NCBI GenBank assembly: GCA_014650475.1
Contig: BMVA01000009.1
Coordinates: forward strand, 186,001 to 250,000
DNA length: 64,000 nt
Reading direction: 5' to 3'
Source of the DNA: Streptomyces albogriseolus
GTDB taxonomy: Bacteria; Actinomycetota; Actinomycetes; Streptomycetales; Streptomycetaceae
The position numbers and the translations under genes were made by a program. Below, in pieces: positions 10,665 through 62,468 of this stretch; position 1 is the stretch's first letter; the number at the start of each line of letters is the position of its first letter. The notes below the pieces were generated by a model. It saw only the letters and a list, made by a program, of their open reading frames with translations. It did not search any database and was not told where the DNA came from.

Positions 10665-11753
10665 GTGGAAATCTCAGCCGCCGGGCGCCTCGAGGTCCGT
10701 ATCACCGCTGCTGACGTGGGAAAACGGGTCTCCGTAAGGAGCTTGATCGAACATGGTCCCTCGGGTGAGAAGTTCACCGACACGGTCGGGGTTCTCACAT
10801 CATGGGACAACGGTGTGTTGCGGATCACAAGGAAGAGCGGCGAACGTGTTCGCGTCGCCGAGTCCGCGCTGGTCGCGGGCAAGGTGGTGCCCGCCGCCCC
10901 GGCGCGTCGGCGTGGCCCCGCCGCCTCCTACGAGGAGCTGGCGCGGGTGGCCGCGCGCGGCTGGCGGCCGGTGGAGAGCAAGCGGCTCGGCGCGTGGGAG
11001 CTGCGGGCGGCAGCGGGTTTCACCCGGCGGGCCAACTCCGTGCTGCCGCTGGGCGACCCGGGCCTGCCGCTCGACGACGCGCTGACGGCCGTACGCCGCT
11101 GGTACGCGGGCCGGGGGCTGCCGGCGTACATGCAGACCGCGACGGGCGCGGAGGGCACGCAGGAGCTGCTGTGCGCGGAGCTGGAGAAGCGCGGGTGGGT
11201 CCGCGAGGTGACCGCCGAGCTGTGGACGGGCGCTCTGGCCCCGGTCGCCGACCTGGGCGACGGCTCCTCCGGGGTGCTGCTGTCCCGGGACGCGGACGAG
11301 GCGTGGCTGGCGCGGTACCAGCGCAAGGGCATGAGCGAGGTGGCCCTGCGGGTGCTGGGCGCGGGCTCCCCGGGCGACCCGGTCCCGGGTGAGCCGTCGG
11401 TGTGGTTCGCGACCGTGCCGGGCGCGCCGGGCGCCGCGGCGCCGGCCGCGATCGGGCGGTGTGTCGTGGACGGCCGCTGGGCCGGGTTCGCGGCGGTCGA
11501 GGTGGATCCGGCGCGGCGGCGGGAGGGCCTGGCCACGGCCGTGATGGCGGCGCTGGCCGTCCGTGCGCTGGAGGAGGGCGCCTCGGCGGCCTGGCTTCAG
11601 GTCGAGACGGACAACGAGGGCGCGCGGGTGCTGTACGACCGTCTGGGCTTCGCCCCGCACCACGCGTACCACCACTACCGCGCGCCGGAGGGGACCGCAT
11701 CGGAAGGATCCGCTCCGGATTCATCGGTCCCGGCGGGTGACGGGGCGCCGTGA
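10665..11753 (+). CDS. GNAT-family N-acetyltransferase with an N-terminal beta-barrel domain
   Basis: A 362-residue protein. The first ~75 residues (ITAADVGKRVSVRSLIEHG, then VLTSWDNGVLRITRKSGERV) look like a small SH3/Sm-like barrel, as described for Rv0428c-type acetyltransferases. The C-terminal ~130 residues form a GNAT fold with the acetyl-CoA signature RRREGLATAVMAALA and the terminal strand VETDNEGARVLYDRLGFAP. GTG 10665 is preceded by AGGAGGGG at a somewhat long spacing. Its stop overlaps the next gene's GTG (GTGA). The substrate is unknown. Confidence 0.82.
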   Translation: MEISAAGRLEVRITAADVGKRVSVRSLIEHGPSGEKFTDTVGVLTSWDNGVLRITRKSGERVRVAESALVAGKVVPAAPARRRGPAASYEELARVAARGWRPVESKRLGAWELRAAAGFTRRANSVLPLGDPGLPLDDALTAVRRWYAGRGLPAYMQTATGAEGTQELLCAELEKRGWVREVTAELWTGALAPVADLGDGSSGVLLSRDADEAWLARYQRKGMSEVALRVLGAGSPGDPVPGEPSVWFATVPGAPGAAAPAAIGRCVVDGRWAGFAAVEVDPARRREGLATAVMAALAVRALEEGASAAWLQVETDNEGARVLYDRLGFAPHHAYHHYRAPEGTASEGSAPDSSVPAGDGAP

Positions 11754-12634
11754 GCGGGCACGAACCGGGTATGCGCTCCCCCTGTCCCCCGCCGCCCGGG
11801 CGCTCCGCCGAACTGCGCGAGCGGTTCGCCGAGGAGGCCCGCTGCGAGCGGCCCGGCCTGTCCGCGCTGTGTCTGCTGGTGGCCGCGGAGGGCGACGGCA
11901 CGCTGGACGAGGCGGGCATGGACGCGGTGGAGATCGAACTGGACCGGCTGGCGGGCGAGCTGCCGCACCGGCCGGGCTCGCCGCACGCCTGGGCGGTGGC
12001 GCTGCGGGACCTGCTGGGCGAGCGGTACGGCTTCCACGGCCTGCCGCACGACTACCGGCGGCTGGAGTCCTCGCTGCTGCACGAGGTGCTGCGGCGCCGG
12101 CGCGGGCTGCCGATCCTGCTGTCGGTGGTGTGGATCGAGGTGGCCCGGCGGGCGGGCGCGCCGGTGTACGGCGTGGCGCTGCCCGGGCACTTCGTCGTGG
12201 GCTTCGGCGACCCGGGCGGGGCGGGCGCCGGGCAGGTGCTGGCCGACCCGTTCGACGGGGGCCGGGTGCTGACGGGACCGGACGCCGAGCTGCTGGTCGC
12301 CGGGGCCACCGGAGGCCCGCTGGAGCCGTCCATGCTGGCCCCGGCGGGGACGCTGGAGGTGGTCGCGCGCATCCTGAACAACGTCCGTGCCTGGGCGGCG
12401 ACCCGCCCCGAGCGCACCGACGTCGGCCTGTGGGCGCTGGACGTCGCCCTGCTCCTCCCGTCCCGCCCGGCCCGCCTGCGCTACGAGCGCGCCCAGCTCC
12501 TCGTGCAGCGCGGCGAGTTCACGGCGGGCGCGGCCGAACTGGAGGCGTACGCGGACGTCGTCGCGGCGGTCGACCAGGCGGCCGCGGACCGCATCCGCGG
12601 GGAGGCGCTGGCCGCGCGCGCCCTGCTCAACTGA
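11750..12634 (+). CDS. SirB1-family protein (transglutaminase-like plus TPR-like tail)
   Basis: A 294-residue protein. Its central part (FHGLPHDYRRLESSLLHEVL, then RRRGLPILLSVVWIEVARRA and GVALPGHFVVGF) matches the SirB1/Transglut_core2 family. The C-terminus (LPSRPARLRYERAQLLVQRG, EFTAGAAELEAYADVV) resembles a TPR. The usual transglutaminase cysteine is not obvious, as in many family members, so activity is doubtful. GTG 11750 overlaps the GNAT stop; an in-frame ATG at 11771 is an alternative. The function of this widespread family is unclear. The gene ends at a bidirectional terminator. Confidence 0.8.
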   Translation: MSGHEPGMRSPCPPPPGRSAELRERFAEEARCERPGLSALCLLVAAEGDGTLDEAGMDAVEIELDRLAGELPHRPGSPHAWAVALRDLLGERYGFHGLPHDYRRLESSLLHEVLRRRRGLPILLSVVWIEVARRAGAPVYGVALPGHFVVGFGDPGGAGAGQVLADPFDGGRVLTGPDAELLVAGATGGPLEPSMLAPAGTLEVVARILNNVRAWAATRPERTDVGLWALDVALLLPSRPARLRYERAQLLVQRGEFTAGAAELEAYADVVAAVDQAAADRIRGEALAARALLN

Positions 12635-52973: not shown

Positions 52974-53395
52974 GGAGGGTTCCTCCTCAATCGGTGGTGC
53001 GCGTTCATGTGGGGGGTGGTGCGGTGACGCACGGGCACGTGCAGCCCTGTATGTCGAGAGCATGACAAAGGGCCGTCGGGCCCGTGTGCGTCAGCCGAAA
53101 GATTGAGGGTTCCACAGGAATTGCACAAGGGCGCCTCGGCGACCTACGGACCTCGCCGCTCCGATTCGGACACCGGACGCCCGGTCCGGCCGCGTACGGC
53201 CGCGTACGGCCGTCCCGGCACAGACACGGCACAGCCGACCCATGGACTCCCCGCCCACCCCCGTTAACATGTTCGAACTCACGACGGATGTCCTCATTCA
53301 CCGGCTGTCCACCGAAAGCCCCTGTCCTCCCGCGCGATGCGCCACTTGCCCGCGAAGCCACCTGCCCGCAACCGAATCACCAGGCGAACCAGTTG
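52974..53395. other. Divergent intergenic region between protease and PAP2-like genes
   Basis: About 420 bases with no supported gene. A GTTCGAAC palindrome near 53272 inside a locally AT-richer stretch (GTTAACATGTTCGAACTCAC) is the only notable element. It could belong to a promoter or operator for the PAP2-like gene. Confidence 0.35.
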
Positions 53396-54889
53396 ATGAC
53401 CGAACCCACTCGAATACCGCCGCGGGACGACCGCGGGACGCAGCCCGCCCCGTGGCGCCGGCCCCGCGTGATCCTGTGGACCGCGGCGGGCGTGGTGACC
53501 CTGGGCTTCCTCGTCGCCCTGGAGATCGTGGCGCGCGGCTACGGCTTCTCGGGGCCGATCACCGAACAGTCGCGGGAGGTGATCTTCGCCCCCGAGTCGG
53601 GGCCGCTGCTCTACGGCGGCCTGGCGCTGACGATGGTGGTGCTCACCTGGCGGCAGCGGCTGATCGCGCTGGGCGTCGCCGCGGGCGTGGACATCGTCTT
53701 CTTCCTGGTGCGGTGGGTGCTCGACGCCGACATGAACTTCGGCAACGGCGCGCTGTGGGTGGTCCTGGGCGTCGCGGTCCTCGGCCTCACGCGCCGCACC
53801 GGCCACGAACGGACACTGCTGCTCAAGGGCACCGGCCTGGGCCTGCTGCTGGTGGCCGGCCACAAGACCGGCGACACCTGGCTGCTCATCACCTCGAAGA
53901 CCCGCGCGACCGTCCTCGACGCGTACGTGGCCGCCGCGGACCACGCCCTGGCCGACCCGTCGTGGCTGGTGGGCCGTTTCCTGAACGCGACCGCGCCGGT
54001 CAGCACGGGCATCCTGCACGTCGTCTACGGCCAGCTCCCGCTCGCCGCCGCCCTCGTCGGCCTCTACCAGCTGCGCCGGGTGGCGGTGGAGCGCCGCTTC
54101 CCCGCCCACCACCTGGTGCGCACGTTCCTGATGATCGGTCTGCTCGGCCCCGCCATCTACATGATCTTCCCGGTGGTCGGCCCCGTCTTCGCGTACGGCA
54201 CGGACGGCGGCGCCTGGGCGACGGCCAACCTCTGGCCGGACACCCTGCCGCCCGTCACCGACCCGCGGCCGATCCCGTTCGACGGCATCACCCCGCGCAA
54301 CTGCATGCCCAGCCTGCACACCGCGTGGGCCGTCACCCTCTTCGTCCACTCCCGCGACGGCTCCCGGGCGATGCGCTGGGCGGGCACCTTCTGGCTGGTC
54401 GGCACCCTCACGGCGACCCTGGGCTTCGGCTACCACTACGGCGCCGACCTGCTCGCCGGCGTGGTCTTCGCCCTGACCATCGAGACGGCGATGCGCTGCT
54501 CCGCCCACGGCTGGGACCGCGCGGGCGTCCGCCTGGTCGCCCTCGGCACGACGGTCTTCGCCGCCCTGCTGGCCTCGTACCGCTGGCTCCCCACGGAGAT
54601 GGCCGCCCGCCCCTGGCTGTTCGGCCCGCTCCTGCTGCTGGTGACGGGCGCGGTGATCTACGCGTACGTGCGGACGGCGCGGGCGGCGCGGGCGGCGCGT
54701 GAGCGTGAGCCGAAGCCGGAGGTGCCGGGGCAGCGGCCGGCACCGGAGGCGGAGGAGTCGGCGGAACCGGCGGACCCCACGGATGCGGCTGGGGCGGCCG
54801 AGGCTGCGACGACCGGGACCGGCACGACGATCGGGACCGGCACGACCGGGGAGTCCGGCGCGACGGACGCGAAGCCGGAGCTGGTCTGA
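53396..54889 (+). CDS. PAP2-superfamily integral membrane protein (inositol-phosphotransferase-like)
   Basis: A 497-residue polytopic protein with about ten hydrophobic helices. The PAP2/Aur1-type motifs are NCMPSLHTAWAVTLF (C2-like, with His) and LGFGYHYGADLLAGVVFALT (C3-like His...Asp). Such enzymes transfer or hydrolyse lipid-linked phosphates at the membrane. The C-terminal ~70 residues are hydrophilic and repetitive (GTGTTIGTGTTGESGATDA), apparently disordered. The start at ATG 53396 has a weak ribosome site. It is convergent with the M50 gene; membership in the peptide cluster is uncertain. Confidence 0.8.
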   Translation: MTEPTRIPPRDDRGTQPAPWRRPRVILWTAAGVVTLGFLVALEIVARGYGFSGPITEQSREVIFAPESGPLLYGGLALTMVVLTWRQRLIALGVAAGVDIVFFLVRWVLDADMNFGNGALWVVLGVAVLGLTRRTGHERTLLLKGTGLGLLLVAGHKTGDTWLLITSKTRATVLDAYVAAADHALADPSWLVGRFLNATAPVSTGILHVVYGQLPLAAALVGLYQLRRVAVERRFPAHHLVRTFLMIGLLGPAIYMIFPVVGPVFAYGTDGGAWATANLWPDTLPPVTDPRPIPFDGITPRNCMPSLHTAWAVTLFVHSRDGSRAMRWAGTFWLVGTLTATLGFGYHYGADLLAGVVFALTIETAMRCSAHGWDRAGVRLVALGTTVFAALLASYRWLPTEMAARPWLFGPLLLLVTGAVIYAYVRTARAARAAREREPKPEVPGQRPAPEAEESAEPADPTDAAGAAEAATTGTGTTIGTGTTGESGATDAKPELV

Positions 54890-54900
54890 GCGACGGCGCG

Positions 54901-56166
54901 TCACGTCCCGTGGCGCGCCACCGCTTCGGCGCGCCGGCGGGAGCGGTGGTCGCGCCACTTGGTGACCACCCAGAGGACGTTGACACCGCCGAGGGTGACC
55001 AGCACCGCCGCCGAGTCGGCGTATCCGGCGGGCGTGTTGCCGGGCGCCAGCCCCCGTACGGCGCGGGCCAGCAGGGCGATGTCGAGGGGCAGGGTCACGG
55101 CGGCCATGAACGCGAGACACGCGGCCGTGCCCACGACGAGGACGACGCTGTACACGCGGACCGCCCGGCGCTCGTGCCGGGGCAGCCGGGCGCTCGGGTC
55201 GTCCTCCCCCGCCGCCGTACGGGCGCCGGGACGCAGCGCGCGCAGCGCCCGGCGGTACCGGTACCGGGCGTAGGCGAGCCCGTCGCCGTACAGATCCCGG
55301 CAGCCGGTGAGGTCCTGCAGCACGAAGTACACGTCCGTCCGCGTGAACACCATGAACTGGAACGGCAGCGGCATCAGCGCGAGCAGCAGGGCGGCCGCCG
55401 ACAGCCGGTGGGCCGTGGACGCGGGATCGGTCGCGGCGAGGACCGGCACGAGCGCGGAGGCGACGGACAGGTTGAGCGCGATGCCCGCCAGGTAGGCCGT
55501 CAGCCGGTGGCGGCGCGGGGCGAGTTCGATGCCGCTGATGTCGGTCTGCATGACGAGGAACTGCAGACGCGTGCCGAGCCGCATCCGGCCCGGCACTCCG
55601 GCGGCGCGTGCGGTCACCAGATGGGCCAGTTCGTGGGCGAGCAGCAGCGTCCATCCGGCCGCCGCCCCGCTCAGCAGGACCACACTGCCGTGCGGGCTCC
55701 ACAGCAGGGCGCGGTAGCCCGGCAGCAGGCCGGGGCGGAGCAGCAGGGTGACGACGGCCGCCGCCGTCAGCACGGCGACGGCGACGGGGAGCACCGGATG
55801 CAGGGCGAACCGGACATGACGGGGGCGCAGCCACGGCAGCGAGGCGCGCGGCGGCGCCGGGTCGGGCAGCGGACGGTCGTCGATCCGCGCGACGAACCCG
55901 AGGGCGGCCAGGTCCGCGACGAAGTCCGCGATGTCGAACTCCTCGCCCGTGTCCGCGCGCAGCCGCTCCTGCGTCCGGGCCACGCTCAGCCCCTCGCCCA
56001 GCAGGCGCACGGCCCGCGCCCCGGCGGACGGCAGGGCGACGAAGGTGCGGGTCGCCATGCGTCCGACGATCCACTCGTCGCGGTCGCGCCGCATGGAGAG
56101 CTCGTGCAGCACGACGCGGGCGGCCGGCCCGACGCGGGGCGGCGTCCCGGCGGCGGTGTCCGTCAC
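54901..56166 (-). CDS. M50-type membrane metallopeptidase with an N-terminal PqqD-like domain
   Basis: A 421-residue protein. The first ~100 residues (VLHELSMRRDRDEWIVGRMA, ARTQERLRADTGEEFDIADF, VADLAALGFVARID) resemble a PqqD-type winged helix, the RiPP recognition element (RRE). Then come membrane helices with the zinc motif in LLLAHELAHLVTARAAG (about 176) and further M50-like helices (TAYLAGIALNLSVASALVPV). GTG 56166 overlaps the stop of the ThiF-like gene (GTGA), so the two are co-translated. The likely role is leader removal or processing at the membrane (inference). Confidence 0.8.
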   Translation of the reverse strand: MTDTAAGTPPRVGPAARVVLHELSMRRDRDEWIVGRMATRTFVALPSAGARAVRLLGEGLSVARTQERLRADTGEEFDIADFVADLAALGFVARIDDRPLPDPAPPRASLPWLRPRHVRFALHPVLPVAVAVLTAAAVVTLLLRPGLLPGYRALLWSPHGSVVLLSGAAAGWTLLLAHELAHLVTARAAGVPGRMRLGTRLQFLVMQTDISGIELAPRRHRLTAYLAGIALNLSVASALVPVLAATDPASTAHRLSAAALLLALMPLPFQFMVFTRTDVYFVLQDLTGCRDLYGDGLAYARYRYRRALRALRPGARTAAGEDDPSARLPRHERRAVRVYSVVLVVGTAACLAFMAAVTLPLDIALLARAVRGLAPGNTPAGYADSAAVLVTLGGVNVLWVVTKWRDHRSRRRAEAVARHGT

Positions 56167-57398
56167 CGGGTCTCCCCGTCCGGCGCGGTCACCGCCGGCA
56201 CCGTGCCGCAGGCGGGGCAGTCGTCGCGCCGCTCGGAGCGCTGCAGGACCGGGTCGCCCGGCAGCATGAGGTTGAGGCCGAAGCGGCAGCCGGGCGCGAC
56301 GGGCGGTATGCCGCACAGCAGGGTGAGCGCGGCATGGGCGAGCAGGCTGCCGGACAGGCCCGCGGTCACGGCGTTGACCGGGTTCCACGGCATGCGCGGC
56401 GACGCCACGTCCTCGTCCTGGCCGGGCCCGAGCCGCAGGTCGCGCCGCTCGGCCTCGGCGTCCCGCAGACACTGCCAGCAGGGGCCGCGGCCGGGGGCGA
56501 ACATGCCGACGCTGACCAGCGGCCCGCGGTAGCCCGCCTCGGCCCACGGGGTGCCGGTGGCCAGGCACACCCGGTTCGCCCATCCGCGGATCTCCGGGGG
56601 GCGGTCGGCGGCGAGGAGCAGCAGGTCGTACGGGGCGGACGCGGGCGCGCCGTCCGGGCGGTGCGGGTCCCGTGCGGGGTCGGGCGCCTGGGTCAGCAGG
56701 TCCTCCAGGTCGTCCGGGCCGCGCACCTCGCGGCGCTCCCCCGTGAGCGTGGTGTCCGTGTTCAGGGCGCGCAGCGCGGCCAGCGCCGCGTCGAGCTTGG
56801 GCCGGCCCAGGTCGTCCTCACGGAAGAGGGTCTGCCGGTTGAGGTTGGACAGTTCGACGACGTCCGGTTCGACGCAGTGCAGGTGTCCCACGCCGGACGC
56901 GACGAGGTCGCGGGCGGCCGCCCCGCCGGTGCCGCCGACGCCGACGAGCAGCACGCGGGCGCGGCGCAGCAGCGTCTGCGGCTCCCAGGAGCTGGCACGG
57001 GGCCGCAGGTCCATCCAGCGCATCAGGGTCATCCCCCTGCCGTAGCGCTCGCGTTCCCGCGCGGTCAGCTCCGCGGGCGGCGGGGCGCCGGCGTCCTCGA
57101 CGTAACCGGCCTCGGTCAGGTCGTCCATGGCCCCGGTGACGTCCTCGTCGTCCAGGGCGAGCCGGGGGTGGCGCCGGGTGACCTCGGCGACGACGTCGTC
57201 CGGTCCGCGCGTGCCGTCCATGGTCTCGACCAGGGTCCACACCCAGCCGTCGGGGTCGAGGATCTCGGCGCCGATGCCGTGGACGACGCTGCCGATCCGC
57301 ACGTTGCCGTCGGCCGTCCGGTAGGCCCGGTGCTCGGGCTTGATCCGGGGTCGCCGCATCGTCCGGACCGTGGCCCGGTCCGTGGTCCGCACCGTCAT
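56163..57398 (-). CDS. ThiF/E1-like adenylating enzyme with an N-terminal PqqD-like (RRE) domain
   Basis: A 411-residue protein. Residues ~14-100 (RRPRIKPEHRAYRTADGNVR, LVETMDGTRGPDDVVAEVTR, AMDDLTEAGYVED) match the PqqD-like RRE that binds precursor leaders. The ThiF fold follows: ATP-binding LLVGVGGTGGAAARDLVASG (about 152), then EPDVVELSNLNRQTLFREDD and GRPKLDAALAAL. Zinc cysteines occur as CWQC and CPAC. Such enzymes activate carboxylates by adenylation, as in microcin C7, pantocin and TOMM pathways. ATG 57398 is chosen with a weak ribosome site. Confidence 0.82.
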   Translation of the reverse strand: MTVRTTDRATVRTMRRPRIKPEHRAYRTADGNVRIGSVVHGIGAEILDPDGWVWTLVETMDGTRGPDDVVAEVTRRHPRLALDDEDVTGAMDDLTEAGYVEDAGAPPPAELTARERERYGRGMTLMRWMDLRPRASSWEPQTLLRRARVLLVGVGGTGGAAARDLVASGVGHLHCVEPDVVELSNLNRQTLFREDDLGRPKLDAALAALRALNTDTTLTGERREVRGPDDLEDLLTQAPDPARDPHRPDGAPASAPYDLLLLAADRPPEIRGWANRVCLATGTPWAEAGYRGPLVSVGMFAPGRGPCWQCLRDAEAERRDLRLGPGQDEDVASPRMPWNPVNAVTAGLSGSLLAHAALTLLCGIPPVAPGCRFGLNLMLPGDPVLQRSERRDDCPACGTVPAVTAPDGETR

Positions 57399-57527
57399 CT
57401 TCGCGCCAATCTCGCCGGTCTCAACTACCGCTCCTTCAACGCACATTGACAACGATTGCCCGGTCGGCGAACGCTGGCAAGGTCACATCTGGTCCTTCGC
57501 ACGGCAACGGACAACGGGAGGAACGGC

Positions 57528-57605
57528 ATGGCGAACAAGATCGAGATCCGTCCGCTGGACAAGAAGGAGACCACCGGCGACAGCGGTGGCAACGGCGGCA
57601 GCTGA
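57528..57605 (+). CDS. 25-residue putative RiPP precursor peptide
   Basis: The short frame starts at ATG 57528, six bases after a strong GGGAGGAA-type ribosome site. It reads MANKIEIRPLDKKE in the first 14 residues (leader-like, charged) and ends TTGDSGGNGGS (core-like, small residues). It lies 12 bases before the M14 peptidase gene and is divergent from two proteins with PqqD-like leader-binding domains. Third-position GC is high. This setting is that of a ribosomally made, modified peptide; the modification is unknown. Confidence 0.72.
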   Translation: MANKIEIRPLDKKETTGDSGGNGGS

Positions 57606-57617
57606 CGGCTGGTCAGG

Positions 57618-58913
57618 ATGAACCGCTACCTCACGGTCGCGGAGGTCTCGGCAGCGGCGCGGCGGCTGGTCTCCCGGTACCCGGGGGCCGGCCGTCTGCG
57701 CCGTGTCGGCACCTCCCGCGCGGGGCGTCCGCTGGAGATGCTGTCCGTCGGGCACGGGCCCGCGCACGTCCTGGTGGTCGCCCGGCCGCATCCCGACGAG
57801 CCGGTCGGCGCCGTCACCGCGCTCGCGCTGGCCGAGCGGGTGGCACGCGGCGACGGGCGCTCCCCTGCGACCGACCCGGCGCGCGTCACCTGGGACGTCG
57901 TGCTGTGCCTCGACCCGGACGGGGCGGCGCTGAGCGAGGGCATCGAGGAGGCGACGGCCGGTCCCGCGCCCGCCCTGGAGCGCTACTTCCGCGCCGCGTT
58001 CCGCCCGGTCGCGGCGGAGCAGCCCGAGTGGGCGCCGATCGAGTCGTCCCGGCTCCCGGAGAGCCAGGCCCTGTTCGACCTGATCGACGAGCGGCGCCCG
58101 GTCCTCCAGTGCTCCCTGCACGGCATCGAGGCCGGCGGCACCTTCGCCCAGCTGACGGGCGGCCTGCCGGGTTTCGCCGGGGGCTTCCACACGGCCGCCG
58201 CCGACCTCTCCGTCCCCGTCCAGCACGGCACCTTCGACGCCCTGTACTGGGAGAACCCCGCCCCCGGCGTCCATGTCCTGCCCCCGCCGGAGAACGCCGG
58301 GCGGCTGGCGGCCGGTTCCGAGAACATCGGCCGGTCCACATGGTGCGCACCCCAGCGGTACGGCGGTGTCACCGCGATCGTCGAGGTGCCCATGTGGGCG
58401 AGCGCCCTGGCCGACGACCCGTCCCCGCACCCCTACGCCGTACGCACCCTGCGCGGGCTGTCCCGGCTGGTGCGGGACGGGGGCGAGCAGGTGACCACGG
58501 TCCTCGACAAGGCGCGCGGCTTCCTGCCGCCGCCCGAGGAGAGCGCGCCCCGGCGCGTGCTGGAGTGGATGGCGGACGGCCTGTACGACCTGGTCGCCGA
58601 CTCCTGGCAGCCGCTGGCCCGGCAGGCCGCCGAGAGTGGGGGGCGCGTCACCACGGCCCAGGTCTGCGCCCTGGACGTGGTCGCCCGCCGCCAGCCGCTC
58701 CGCGCGGCCGGTCTCCTGCTGCGCCTGCTGTCGGCCACGGACGACCCCGCCGCACCCGCGCTCCACGACGAGCTGCACGCCCTGTTCACGGCCTGGTGCG
58801 AGGACTTCACCCACGCCCTGGGCCTGCGCTGGGTCCCGGTGCGCGACCAGGTGGACCTCCAGTCCCGTACGGCCCTGGCGGCGGCGGAGTGCGCGCTGCG
58901 CTCCGCGCGCTGA
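57618..58913 (+). CDS. M14-family zinc metallocarboxypeptidase
   Basis: A 431-residue protein. Zinc ligands are His and Glu in VARPHPDEPVG (HxxE, about 57) and His in LQCSLHGIE (about 167). The catalytic Glu is in TAIVEVPMW (about 254). Substrate-pocket segments are intact, so it should be active. There is no signal peptide, so it acts in the cytoplasm. It lies 12 bases after the 25-codon gene and is probably co-transcribed, suggesting that it trims the C-terminus of the small peptide (inference). M14 enzymes acting on RiPPs are known in other clusters. Confidence 0.82.
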   Translation: MNRYLTVAEVSAAARRLVSRYPGAGRLRRVGTSRAGRPLEMLSVGHGPAHVLVVARPHPDEPVGAVTALALAERVARGDGRSPATDPARVTWDVVLCLDPDGAALSEGIEEATAGPAPALERYFRAAFRPVAAEQPEWAPIESSRLPESQALFDLIDERRPVLQCSLHGIEAGGTFAQLTGGLPGFAGGFHTAAADLSVPVQHGTFDALYWENPAPGVHVLPPPENAGRLAAGSENIGRSTWCAPQRYGGVTAIVEVPMWASALADDPSPHPYAVRTLRGLSRLVRDGGEQVTTVLDKARGFLPPPEESAPRRVLEWMADGLYDLVADSWQPLARQAAESGGRVTTAQVCALDVVARRQPLRAAGLLLRLLSATDDPAAPALHDELHALFTAWCEDFTHALGLRWVPVRDQVDLQSRTALAAAECALRSAR

Positions 58914-59235: not shown

Positions 59236-60669
59236 TCACAGCGGCCAGGCGGCCAGCAGATCACCGGGGCCGTAGACGGCGTCGAGCCCCTGACAGTCCA
59301 CTCCGCTCCGGGAGACCGCCACGACGGGGAGCGGCTGGTCGGTGAGGGCGGCGCGGTGACGGAGGAGCGCGGCGAGGTCGCGCCGGTCGAAGGGAGCCTG
59401 CTCCAGCCACTTGATGGAGCCGACGAAGAGCAGTTCCTTGGCGACGGGAGCGCGGTCGGCGCCCACGACATCGATCTCGACGTCGTTGGTACGGGTCCAG
59501 TAACCGCCCACCACGCGAGCCGCGGGCAGCTGGCCGTCGGGGAGCATCCGCGCCAAGGCTTCGCGGATCAGGGGTTCGACGGCCCGCCCCCGCCAGCTGG
59601 TCCAGTTCTCCCGGATGCGGGCCAGGGTCAGGTCGCCGCGTCCCCGCTCGATCTCGTCCATCGACGGGCCGAGCAGATGCAGCCAGAGCCGCAGATAGGG
59701 ATCGGTCACTCGATAGCGGCGGTCCTTCGACGGGCGCAGTGACACCGGCAGCTCCCCGGCGACGATCCGCTTCTCCATGAGCAGTTCCAGGGAGCGTTGC
59801 AGAGGGGTGGCTCCTATGCCGCCGGCCGCGCGGGCGATGTTGGTGAACGTCCGCTCGCCGCTGCCGACGGCGGCCAGCACCGCACGCGCCTGAGCCTGTG
59901 GGGGGAACTCCGCGGCCAATGATCGTTCGGCAGACACCAGCAGGGCGGACACCGGGTCGCTCAACGCCTCGCCGAGGAAGTCCCACAGGCCGGCACCATG
60001 GGGCCACTCTGCGCAGATCAGGGGCAGTCCGCCGGTGACCAGTGCGGCGTCGAAGGCCTCCGCCGGACCGAGCCCGAGCATCTGGCCCACCTCGGCCGGG
60101 TTGAGCGGACCCAGCACCATCTCCCGACCACGCTGGTGGAAGGGGCGCCCGTAGCTGTTCAGCGCCTCCATCATCGACAGGTCGGATCCGATGAGGATCA
60201 GCAGTACCGGCTTGGTCTCCAACACCCGGTCCCAGGCTCGTTGCAGCATGCCCTCGAAGGCGCCGTCCGGATCCATCAGGTACGGCACCTCGTCGATGAC
60301 GAGCACGCCGGCACGGTCGGTGGGCAGGGCCGCCGCGAGGACGTCGAACGCGTCGTCCCAGCTCTGCGGCCGTGCGGCGGCGACAAGACCCGCGGACGGC
60401 AAGGTGGACACCTGAGCGTCCCGAGCCAGCCGCGCCAGGTCGTCGGCCGGTGAGGCGCCCGTGGCCGCGTAGAACAGGAACGGCGCTCCGGAGCGCTCCG
60501 CGAACCGCTCGACCAGTCGCGACTTGCCCACGCGGCGCCGCCCACGCAGCATGACGCACCGCCCGGGCCGCTCGCCCCCCACTCCGGCCGTCACCTTCTG
60601 CAGCTCACGCTCCAGCGTCGCCATCTCGTGTCTGCGGCCCACGAAGTCCACCACGCTGCCTCCATTCAT
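59236..60669 (-). CDS. AAA-type ATPase with a C-terminal DUF234-like domain
   Basis: A 477-residue protein. After DFVGRRHEMATLERELQ comes Walker A in MLRGRRRVGKSRLVERF, Walker B in RAGVLVIDEVPYLMD and the sensor region LILIGSDLSMMEALNSYGRP. The C-terminal half has a winged-helix-like part (LQRSLELLMEKRIVAGELPV, YRVTDPYLRLWLHLL) and a nuclease-like end (NDVEIDVVGADRAPVAKELL, FVGSIKW), as in archaeal-type ATPases with DUF234. Many members sit in accessory DNA and may be defence-related, but no function is established. ATG 60669 has no ribosome site; three palindromic repeats occupy its place. Confidence 0.82.
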   Translation of the reverse strand: MNGGSVVDFVGRRHEMATLERELQKVTAGVGGERPGRCVMLRGRRRVGKSRLVERFAERSGAPFLFYAATGASPADDLARLARDAQVSTLPSAGLVAAARPQSWDDAFDVLAAALPTDRAGVLVIDEVPYLMDPDGAFEGMLQRAWDRVLETKPVLLILIGSDLSMMEALNSYGRPFHQRGREMVLGPLNPAEVGQMLGLGPAEAFDAALVTGGLPLICAEWPHGAGLWDFLGEALSDPVSALLVSAERSLAAEFPPQAQARAVLAAVGSGERTFTNIARAAGGIGATPLQRSLELLMEKRIVAGELPVSLRPSKDRRYRVTDPYLRLWLHLLGPSMDEIERGRGDLTLARIRENWTSWRGRAVEPLIREALARMLPDGQLPAARVVGGYWTRTNDVEIDVVGADRAPVAKELLFVGSIKWLEQAPFDRRDLAALLRHRAALTDQPLPVVAVSRSGVDCQGLDAVYGPGDLLAAWPL

Positions 60670-60708
60670 GTTACTAACACTCACGTTAGTAACATTGAGG
60701 TTAGCAAC
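60670..60708. repeat. Three 9-bp palindromes in 15-bp phase at the ATPase start
   Basis: GTTACTAAC (60670-60678), GTTAGTAAC (60685-60693) and GTTAGCAAC (60700-60708) follow the pattern GTTANNAAC and start exactly 15 bases apart. The first two are perfect palindromes around a central base. The block directly abuts the start codon, between that gene and the one upstream. It is AT-rich in a GC-rich setting. It could be an operator array, or encode pentapeptide repeats if translation starts further upstream. Confidence 0.7.
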
Positions 60709-60725
60709 ATCGTCGGATGCATTCC

Positions 60726-61220
60726 TCACATGACCGGGCGGTTGGCGGACGTGTACTCCTCGGCGACGTTGAAGACGCTGGCGCAGTGGGGGCACTCCGC
60801 GTGCCCGAAGAGGTGGGCGATGCCGTCGGCGAGGGAGCCCTGGCCGTCGCGGACGGCCGTCTCGTGCATCCGTCGCCCGACGCCGGAGAGGGCCGCGGGG
60901 TCCGCGGGCCTCAGCTCGCGCCGGTCCACGTCTCCGAGGTGCCAGTCCCGGATCGCCGAGTAGCGCCCGTACGCGCCGATGGCGATCGTCACGTCGACGG
61001 CGCAGTGCGGGCAGGCGACCCGGTAGAAGTCGTCCGAGAAGTCCCCCAGGACCGCGCTCCAGTGGTACTGCTGCTCGGTCGCCAGCAGAAAGCGGAAGCT
61101 CGCCAGGTAGTCGTCCGGCCGCGACCGCAGGTGCCGGTCGAGGATCTCGCGGAACGTCCTGATCGCGTGGGCGCAGCCCGGCAGCAGGTCGTCACAGCCG
61201 TGAGGGGACGGGACGCACAT
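60726..61220 (-). CDS. CPxC-containing hypothetical protein, possibly 5'-truncated
   Basis: From ATG 61220 the protein has 164 residues: CVPSPHGCDDLLPGCAHAIR, then FREILDRHLRSRPDDYLASF and two CPHC motifs (YRVACPHCAVDV and GHAECPHCASVF) that could hold zinc. Coding-like sequence seems to continue upstream in frame (DDAAALPLASHSARARGLAG) without a start until it runs into the ychF terminator, so an N-terminal repeat region may have been lost. No known domain. It is transcribed towards the ATPase. Confidence 0.55.
   Translation of the reverse strand: MCVPSPHGCDDLLPGCAHAIRTFREILDRHLRSRPDDYLASFRFLLATEQQYHWSAVLGDFSDDFYRVACPHCAVDVTIAIGAYGRYSAIRDWHLGDVDRRELRPADPAALSGVGRRMHETAVRDGQGSLADGIAHLFGHAECPHCASVFNVAEEYTSANRPVM

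Positions 61221-61379: not shown

Positions 61380-62468
<1,089 letters not shown>

Follow-up and report, generated by a model that had tools for sequence, protein, structure and literature searches.

A conserved short peptide encoded beside an RRE-fused ThiF protein in Streptomyces albogriseolus and other actinomycetes: a precursor-enzyme pair of a probable RiPP-type pathway

A cluster of four genes was analyzed in a 64,000-nucleotide stretch of the genome of Streptomyces albogriseolus (assembly GCA_014650475.1, contig BMVA01000009.1; genome size 8.07 Mb). The whole stretch is hereafter called the window. The cluster includes a short peptide gene, a gene for an M14 metallocarboxypeptidase-fold protein whose ATG lies 12 bases past the stop codon of the peptide gene, and two genes on the minus strand for a ThiF/E1-like protein and an M50 peptidase, whose reading frames overlap by GTGA (Table 1). 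This layout, with the 25 codons and the ribosome-binding site of the peptide gene and with the divergent, coupled ThiF-M50 pair, was described in a first-pass annotation made from the sequence alone, and it was confirmed base by base. The 25-codon peptide gene is real. The recurrent unit among related loci is the peptide together with the ThiF protein, which carries an N-terminal recognition element (RRE) of the kind found in the biosynthesis of ribosomally synthesized and post-translationally modified peptides (RiPPs). As precursor and enzyme of the RRE-ThiF RiPP kind, the two are well supported.

Table 1. Genes and sequence features of the peptide-ThiF locus, in window coordinates.
Feature	Position	Strand	Basis
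Precursor peptide gene, 25 codons, MANKIEIRPLDKKETTGDSGGNGGS	ATG 57528 to TGA 57605	+	Base-by-base reading; relatives; purifying selection
Putative precursor layout: leader, about residues 1-14 (IxIRxLDxxE stretch), then TT, then small-residue tail	within 57528..57605	+	
Ribosome-binding site GGGAGG of the peptide gene	57516..57521	+	Sequence; purine-rich equivalent in 21 aligned rows (window and 20 relatives)
RRE-ThiF adenylyltransferase, 411 residues if the start is ATG 57398	56163..57398	-	Pfam, profile and fold matches
M50 (site-2-type) peptidase with RRE-like N-terminus	54901..56166	-	HELAH at residue 178; N-terminal profile match
M14 metallocarboxypeptidase-fold protein, with a predicted helical C-terminal extension beyond the M14 fold (about residues 274-430)	57618..58913	+	Pfam; motifs; fold match
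Upstream stretch: TTGACA (57446-57451) and GCTGGCAAGGTC element	57446..57487	not assigned	Alignment of the window and 20 relatives

A ThiF search of genome contigs revealed 34 relatives, 33 from Streptomyces and one from Kitasatospora. A matching peptide gene is present beside ThiF and M14 in all 34, each of which has an M14 match; 33 of the peptides were found with the first search pattern, and the one from locus L034, whose first motif residue is Met, with a wider pattern. Recurrence of the peptide beside ThiF in homologous loci had been set beforehand as a test of the first-pass annotation, and it was seen again at 65 of 70 ThiF loci (62 by pattern, and L052, L067, and L037 by inspection). 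The 70 loci were deduplicated and about 6 kb or longer, with the window excluded and near-identical relatives such as L022/L035 retained. They are not a random sample, as many were found via the window ThiF, and four lie within 2.5 kb of an end. The leader motif [IV]xIRxL[DE]xxETT shows a ratio of nonsynonymous to synonymous polymorphism (pN/pS) of 0.21 over 12 codons in 35 rows (window included; L022 and L035 by their first peptide only), which indicates purifying selection and conservation beyond chance. These rows all keep the second Ile, the Arg, Leu, and Glu, the two Thr, and the Ser at position 15, although the codons for these residues vary. A search with the peptide alone in another actinomycete family (f19) gave 40 matches, the best of which became 19 loci (L151-L169), 7 of them at places already known; ThiF lies within about 1.5 kb at 18 of the 19. 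These co-occurrences and the selection on the motif speak against a small open frame that is unrelated or there by chance, an explanation of practically negligible probability favoured by the short length only.

Matches to the peptide profile were found in 37 of 392 Streptomyces genomes, including the window genome and several degraded copies, 18 of 245 genomes at the order level, and 12 of 394 at the class level, where the match in genome G714 is likely by chance and that in G222 is a remnant. The 40 matches from f19 are distributed in 26 of 120 genomes. A wider profile at the phylum level matched 2 of 246 genomes, the window genome and one likely chance hit. The genome samples of these searches overlap. 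The hits in G714 and G956 were treated as chance matches, with none of the cluster genes nearby. At the threshold 1e-40, the ThiF profile yielded 20 matches in 13 of 394 class-level genomes, and 15 of them have a clear peptide. Relatives from a plasmid collection belong to Streptomyces, Actinacidiphila, Nocardia, and Nonomuraea, each with the peptide. In total, 57 distinct peptides were recovered over 97 places.

The peptides can be divided into a conserved leader and a variable tail. A hand-chosen set of 26 diverse peptides shows no variation at R, L, E, and T of IRxLxxxET. More than one peptide is encoded at 17 loci, of which eight provided 12 pairs for comparison, the other nine loci being copies or near copies of these eight. 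Tandem copies are 94% identical in the motif and 30% in the tail, and the motif is more similar than the tail in 12 of 12 pairs. This contrast is as expected for the leader and core of a RiPP precursor, and to this extent the sequences agree with the precursor with a small-residue tail proposed in the first-pass annotation. Of 50 distinct tails, 44 have a length of 8 or 9 residues, and G, S, N, T, A, or Q make up 79% of the tail residues. Every tail ends in N, S, A, G, T, D, E, or C (Asn in 14). Such uniform short tails with a small last residue would be expected if the peptide end must enter a small pocket. Neither Asp nor Glu is present in 20 of the 50 tails, and thus a side-chain acid in the tail is not required. 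Cys is observed in nine tails, Ser rather than Cys being found in most. Most tails have a Ser or Cys at positions -8 to -5 from the end, and five have none there. A universal Ser/Cys nucleophile at the third position after TT looked plausible at first and was kept as a hypothesis only, because the Cys positions vary by locus and 5 of 50 tails are without Ser/Cys at -8 to -5.

The window ThiF protein matches the Pfam family ThiF with the E-value 1.3e-37. Its N-terminus matches the Pfam family PaaA-like_N at 0.0014 (18.6 bits, below the cut-off of 27), and a profile of eight ThiF N-termini matched the RRE of PaaA (5ff5) with the E-value 3.4e-4, the sole credible RRE relative in PDB. The best solved relatives of the ThiF profile are MccB (9.9e-33) and PaaA (1.3e-32), and fold ranks 1-26 for the predicted model (mean predicted local distance difference test (pLDDT) score 81) are all MccB or PaaA. 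The GxGGxG motif, R188, Q189, K201, D265, and two CxxC pairs are invariant in 22 ThiF rows. These four numbered residues are the counterparts of ATP residues in EnfB and IndF, and the spacing of 13 between R and K in the window ThiF is the same as that of Arg167 and Lys180 in EnfB, as given in the accessible part of PMC12250964. Judged by these profile and fold matches, the ThiF protein consists of an RRE and a complete adenylation domain and has MccB and PaaA as its nearest relatives, in line with the RRE-fused adenylating-type enzyme of the first-pass annotation.

The E1-type fold of ThiF and the penultimate Gly in 31 of 50 tails would also suit a peptide tag or sulfur-carrier-like modifier, in which ThiF activates the C-terminus for protein joining or sulfur loading and M14 processes or removes the peptide. 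This function is very improbable: the top homologues are MccB and PaaA and not E1s, most tails have no GG end, and the neighbourhood showed no evident E2, JAB, or beta-grasp gene, though none was searched for. Anti-phage or ubiquitin-like conjugation was rejected as well. PADLOC reported 24 models for ThiF, all of them E1-E2 models (best 6.7e-15) covering only about residues 155-255; M50 and M14 had no PADLOC match.

The peptide decays in genomes that lack ThiF. Seven genomes have a peptide hit but no ThiF at 1e-30 (G714 left out). In six of them, M14 is found at the site of the hit: G132, G136, G027 (M14 fragment only), G370, G292, and G222. In the peptides of G132, G136, and G027, Leu10 is replaced by Pro besides other changes, and these peptides differ from that of the window by 7.5, 9, and 6 nonsynonymous changes, respectively; the control peptides of L002 and L003 have 0 and 2. 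G292 has no start codon before the motif, and the peptide frame is lost in G222. The peptide is broken at R or L or has lost its frame in five of these six genomes versus 0 of 65 with ThiF (p = 5e-7). M14 is full length in G132 and G136, which may reflect another use of M14 or recent losses.

The peptidase genes are variable companions of this pair. M14 is present at 44 of the 70 ThiF loci (missing from 26) and M50 at 51 (missing from 19). A protein of the family DUF6879 (Pfam PF21806; Pfam named it for two members) is encoded at 13 loci, never with M14. The sets of partners are peptide, M14, and M50 (30 loci), peptide, M50, and DUF6879 (12), peptide and M14 (11), peptide and M50 (6), peptide and DUF6879 (1), and peptide only (2; L096 and L145, close relatives), and the remaining eight loci have no pattern-matched peptide. 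Peptide-ThiF loci with DUF6879 and without M14 include L094, L095, L099, L100, L110, L112, L133, L137, and L141-L144. The fixed four-gene pathway assumed in the first-pass annotation is therefore only one of several variants, since M50 and M14 are each missing from many loci.

The window M50 protein matches Pfam Peptidase_M50 below the cut-off (E-value 0.0014; 18.4 bits against 27.2), and HExxH is kept in all 27 aligned M50 rows. A profile of 14 M50 N-termini had its best match in the lasso RRE TbiB1 (0.0025); the next matches were a designed protein (0.025), TfuB1 (0.3), a ribosomal protein (1.4), and a PqqD-family protein (1.5). Taken singly, 6 of the 14 matched Pfam PqqD weakly (best 0.0013) and 3 matched the NCBIfam lasso PqqD model (best 0.013). 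The N-terminus of the window M50 alone matched no family in the Pfam or NCBIfam libraries, and a direct comparison of profiles did not significantly relate the ThiF N-termini to those of M50 (probability 6.5%). The M50 N-terminus is a probable RRE on this evidence, so that the PqqD-like domains claimed for both proteins by the first-pass annotation stand for ThiF and are less certain for M50. The M14 protein matches Pfam Peptidase_M14 at 6.3e-9, and its zinc and catalytic motifs HxxE, SLH, and E(V/A)P are kept in 29, 34, and 34 of 35 rows, respectively, several rows having shortened starts. Its predicted model (pLDDT 90) matches M14 carboxypeptidases with modest template modeling scores (TM-scores). 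M50 enzymes occur in epipeptide and pearlin pathways, and M14 is not mentioned in the accessible part of PMC10885120.

The very conserved peptide, found at loci with M50, M14, both, or neither, could also be a reusable scaffold as in the pearlin pathways. In that case, ThiF would attach a small molecule to the C-terminal end of the peptide, with M50 or M14 as the releasing enzyme. According to the accessible parts of the two papers, the M50 enzymes TglG and TmoG free C-terminal residues in pearlin pathways (PMC10885120), and EnfB is able to amidate the C-terminus of its own peptide (PMC12250964). We regard such a scaffold as improbable. No tailoring enzyme or aminoacyl ligase was recognized among the five window proteins that were scanned, the relatives not being scanned for these; two loci are without either peptidase; and coupling followed by release alone would accomplish nothing.

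It is probable that the locus encodes a RiPP-type pathway in which ThiF adenylates a carboxylate of the peptide, leading to a macrocycle or a C-terminal derivative that is released by a peptidase. The support comes from gene structure, conservation, domain make-up, co-occurrence, and peptide decay without ThiF, and the chemistry is predicted. By analogy with IndF and its relatives, the RRE of ThiF would bind the leader (IxIRxLDxxE), and the tail would thread into the neighbouring active site. Leader presentation by an RRE, with the C-terminus reaching the adenylation site, is described in the accessible parts of PMC12150305 and PMC12250964. With ATP, ThiF would adenylate most likely the C-terminal alpha-carboxylate, for which the chances within this scheme are somewhat better than even; this target is favoured because tail length varies little and the last residue is small. 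The invariant Glu of ETT, activated in the manner of PaaA, is a less likely target within the same scheme. An internal nucleophile (Ser or Cys at positions -8 to -5 of most tails, or the TT pair) could then attack to form a macrolactone or another cyclic product, or an outside amine could attack to give a C-terminal derivative. Where M50 is present, its RRE-like domain may bind the same leader, which the peptidase would then cleave off, possibly with export. M14 may take residues off the C-terminus for substrate preparation, follower trimming, or destruction of the unmodified peptide. A more specific and rather speculative version is an undescribed actinomycete RiPP family in which the RRE-ThiF closes Ser or Cys onto the C-terminus, producing Gly/Asn/Ser-rich macrolactone or thiolactone signals, with M14, M50, and DUF6879 as alternative partners for maturation or turnover.

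A PaaA-like route is left open because the motif Glu is invariant; yet L067, with ThiF, M14, and M50 all present, has Gln in its place and is not included in the set of 26 peptides. ThiF would activate the side chain of the ETT Glu and cyclize it with a neighbour, and M14 would trim the tail as a follower, leaving a very small ETT-derived product. PaaA, which supplied the only credible structural relative of the ThiF RRE, acts on an internal Glu and needs a follower (accessible part of PMC12250964), both E and T are invariant in the chosen peptides, and a carboxypeptidase partner suits follower removal. L110 also has a gene for a 2-oxoglutarate (2OG)-Fe(II) oxygenase (11357-12007; Pfam AlkB-like family) directly after DUF6879, and the superfamily includes PaaB; a same-sized gene is found in L111. 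This pantocin-like route is unlikely. Besides the Gln of L067, tandem copies with differing tails would yield an identical product, and the carboxypeptidase is absent from more than a third of the loci.

Several observations weigh against the RiPP-type pathway with C-terminal activation. The Glu and the first Thr of ETT are as strongly conserved as the presumed leader residues, which fits PaaA-like Glu modification with the tail as a follower. The tails are bland and alike between distant loci (SNSxGN, GGNGGS), unlike diversified antibiotics. M50 and M14 are each dispensable, which suggests maturation or turnover roles coverable by other cell enzymes. A dedicated transporter is not evident from the comparison of neighbours at 35 loci, because beyond M14, ThiF, and M50 no gene family, most of them not identified, adjoins the cluster in more than 12. 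Orphan peptides MAQKIEIRPLDKKETTGDSNSQGA are present in G215, G435, and G493, genomes with a ThiF locus elsewhere. The peptide motif is intact without ThiF in G370. Five of the 70 ThiF loci are without a clear peptide: L136 and L138-L140 have no recognizable peptide of this type and L135 is doubtful. If these five are scored as losses, the p-value of the loss test becomes 8e-5, and if G169 (neither ThiF nor M14; a nearly intact motif with one T-to-S change) is scored as intact, the two p-values become 1.5e-6 and 2.4e-4. The pattern behind most of the 65 peptides demands R, so the loss comparison favours intact motifs.

The ThiF match of L136 spans a stop. L138 and L139 seem to have a common, different flanking gene order and may serve another substrate. 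Orphan peptide copies at L097 (8041), L101 (7691), and L109 (7794) share a conserved place near a GNAT acetyltransferase gene, with the ThiF locus elsewhere in the genome.

RRE-ThiF RiPPs are an established group, including microcin C, pantocin, GRC, enterofaecin, and IndA (accessible parts of PMC12250964 and PMC12150305), and the first-pass statement that the locus fits no common RiPP class was too strong. Features of the group that are seen here are a fused RRE and ThiF/E1-like domain, the ATP-binding residues, and an adjacent precursor with a conserved leader and a variable core. No LanB/LanM, YcaO, or radical S-adenosylmethionine (SAM) enzyme was found when the five window proteins were scanned with Pfam and NCBIfam. 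The PaaA/PaaP system of pantocin A is similar in its RRE-ThiF with, by sequence comparison, the same kind of N-terminal domain, its short precursor, and its adenylation chemistry. It differs in that the identity in the structure match is 22-23%, the window locus has M14 and M50 partners, no Glu-Glu core is present (no EE from the motif onward in the 57 distinct peptides), and neither a 2OG oxygenase nor an exporter was seen among the scanned window proteins, although the relative L110 has the oxygenase gene. MccB/MccA of microcin C7 shares the best profile and fold match, the ATP-binding residues, and a very short peptide. The window tail, however, ends with Ser, only 14 of 50 tails being Asn-ended, and the scanned window proteins include no exporter or MccF-like protein.

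IndF/IndA from Streptococcus and EnfB/EnfA from Enterococcus likewise consist of an RRE-ThiF and a precursor, with a peptidase in ind. The leader motif (V/I)RKA of EnfA resembles IRxL of the window peptide, and in IndA the core EDTTNWYFI places TT before the nucleophile. In contrast, the window peptide is without an aromatic core, the ind peptidase is M16, and the hosts here are actinomycetes. The RRE-ThiF of the GrcB thiolactone RiPPs closes the ring dehydratively between a carboxylate and Cys in the known case, whereas Ser is found in most tails here and no radical SAM protein among the scanned window proteins. The pearlins (TglG/TmoG) and epipeptides (EpeP) share an M50 peptidase acting on a ribosomal peptide, but no peptide aminoacyl-tRNA ligase or epimerase is among the scanned window proteins; the relatives were not scanned for the ligase.

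Literature searches by exact motif and by topic among open-license PMC papers, covering titles and the starts of abstracts among the matches listed, found no report of this motif or gene set. M14, M50, and DUF6879 partners were not found described for RRE-ThiF RiPPs in the accessible parts of PMC12250964 and PMC12150305. These peptides may correspond to a node without a label in the network of PMC12150305, whose supplements were outside the search. Among the many RRE-ThiF fusions (27,400 surveyed, according to the accessible part of PMC12150305), only a handful have known substrates. For the actinomycete branch, a substrate motif is now defined, with dozens of naturally occurring variants and natural cases of loss, and the chemistry is directly assayable. 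The gene partners raise the question of the role of an M14 carboxypeptidase and the unexplained DUF6879 family for such peptides.

The start of the window ThiF gene is uncertain. Its longest frame (56163-57452) is open to the TTG at 57452, and the ATG at 57398, from which the structure model was built, is a possible start. The upstream stretch at 57446-57487 touches the 5' end of this longest frame, and its GCTGGCAAGGTC element is nearly palindromic (CTCTxGCAAGAG) in several relatives. TTGACA and the near-palindrome upstream of the peptide gene possibly function as promoter and operator, as their sequences suggest.

An M1 aminopeptidase gene adjoins the M14-peptide place in L022 (3664-6243), with a similar gene by eye in L103 (9362-11941) and a same-sized gene in L104 and L105; this may represent a shared insertion site or a leader-trimming partner. 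Single loci carry ABC or EamA transporter genes nearby, such as an ABC transporter pair near the peptide in L094 (5866-7742) and an EamA transporter beside the peptide in L103 (6893-7894). In the window, the neighbours at 59236-60795 and 53084-54889 encode a DUF234-type ATPase and a PAP2/DUF5933 protein, each present in 3 of the 35 loci compared, and the YchF-type GTPase encoded at 61380-62468 is present in 12 of the 35.

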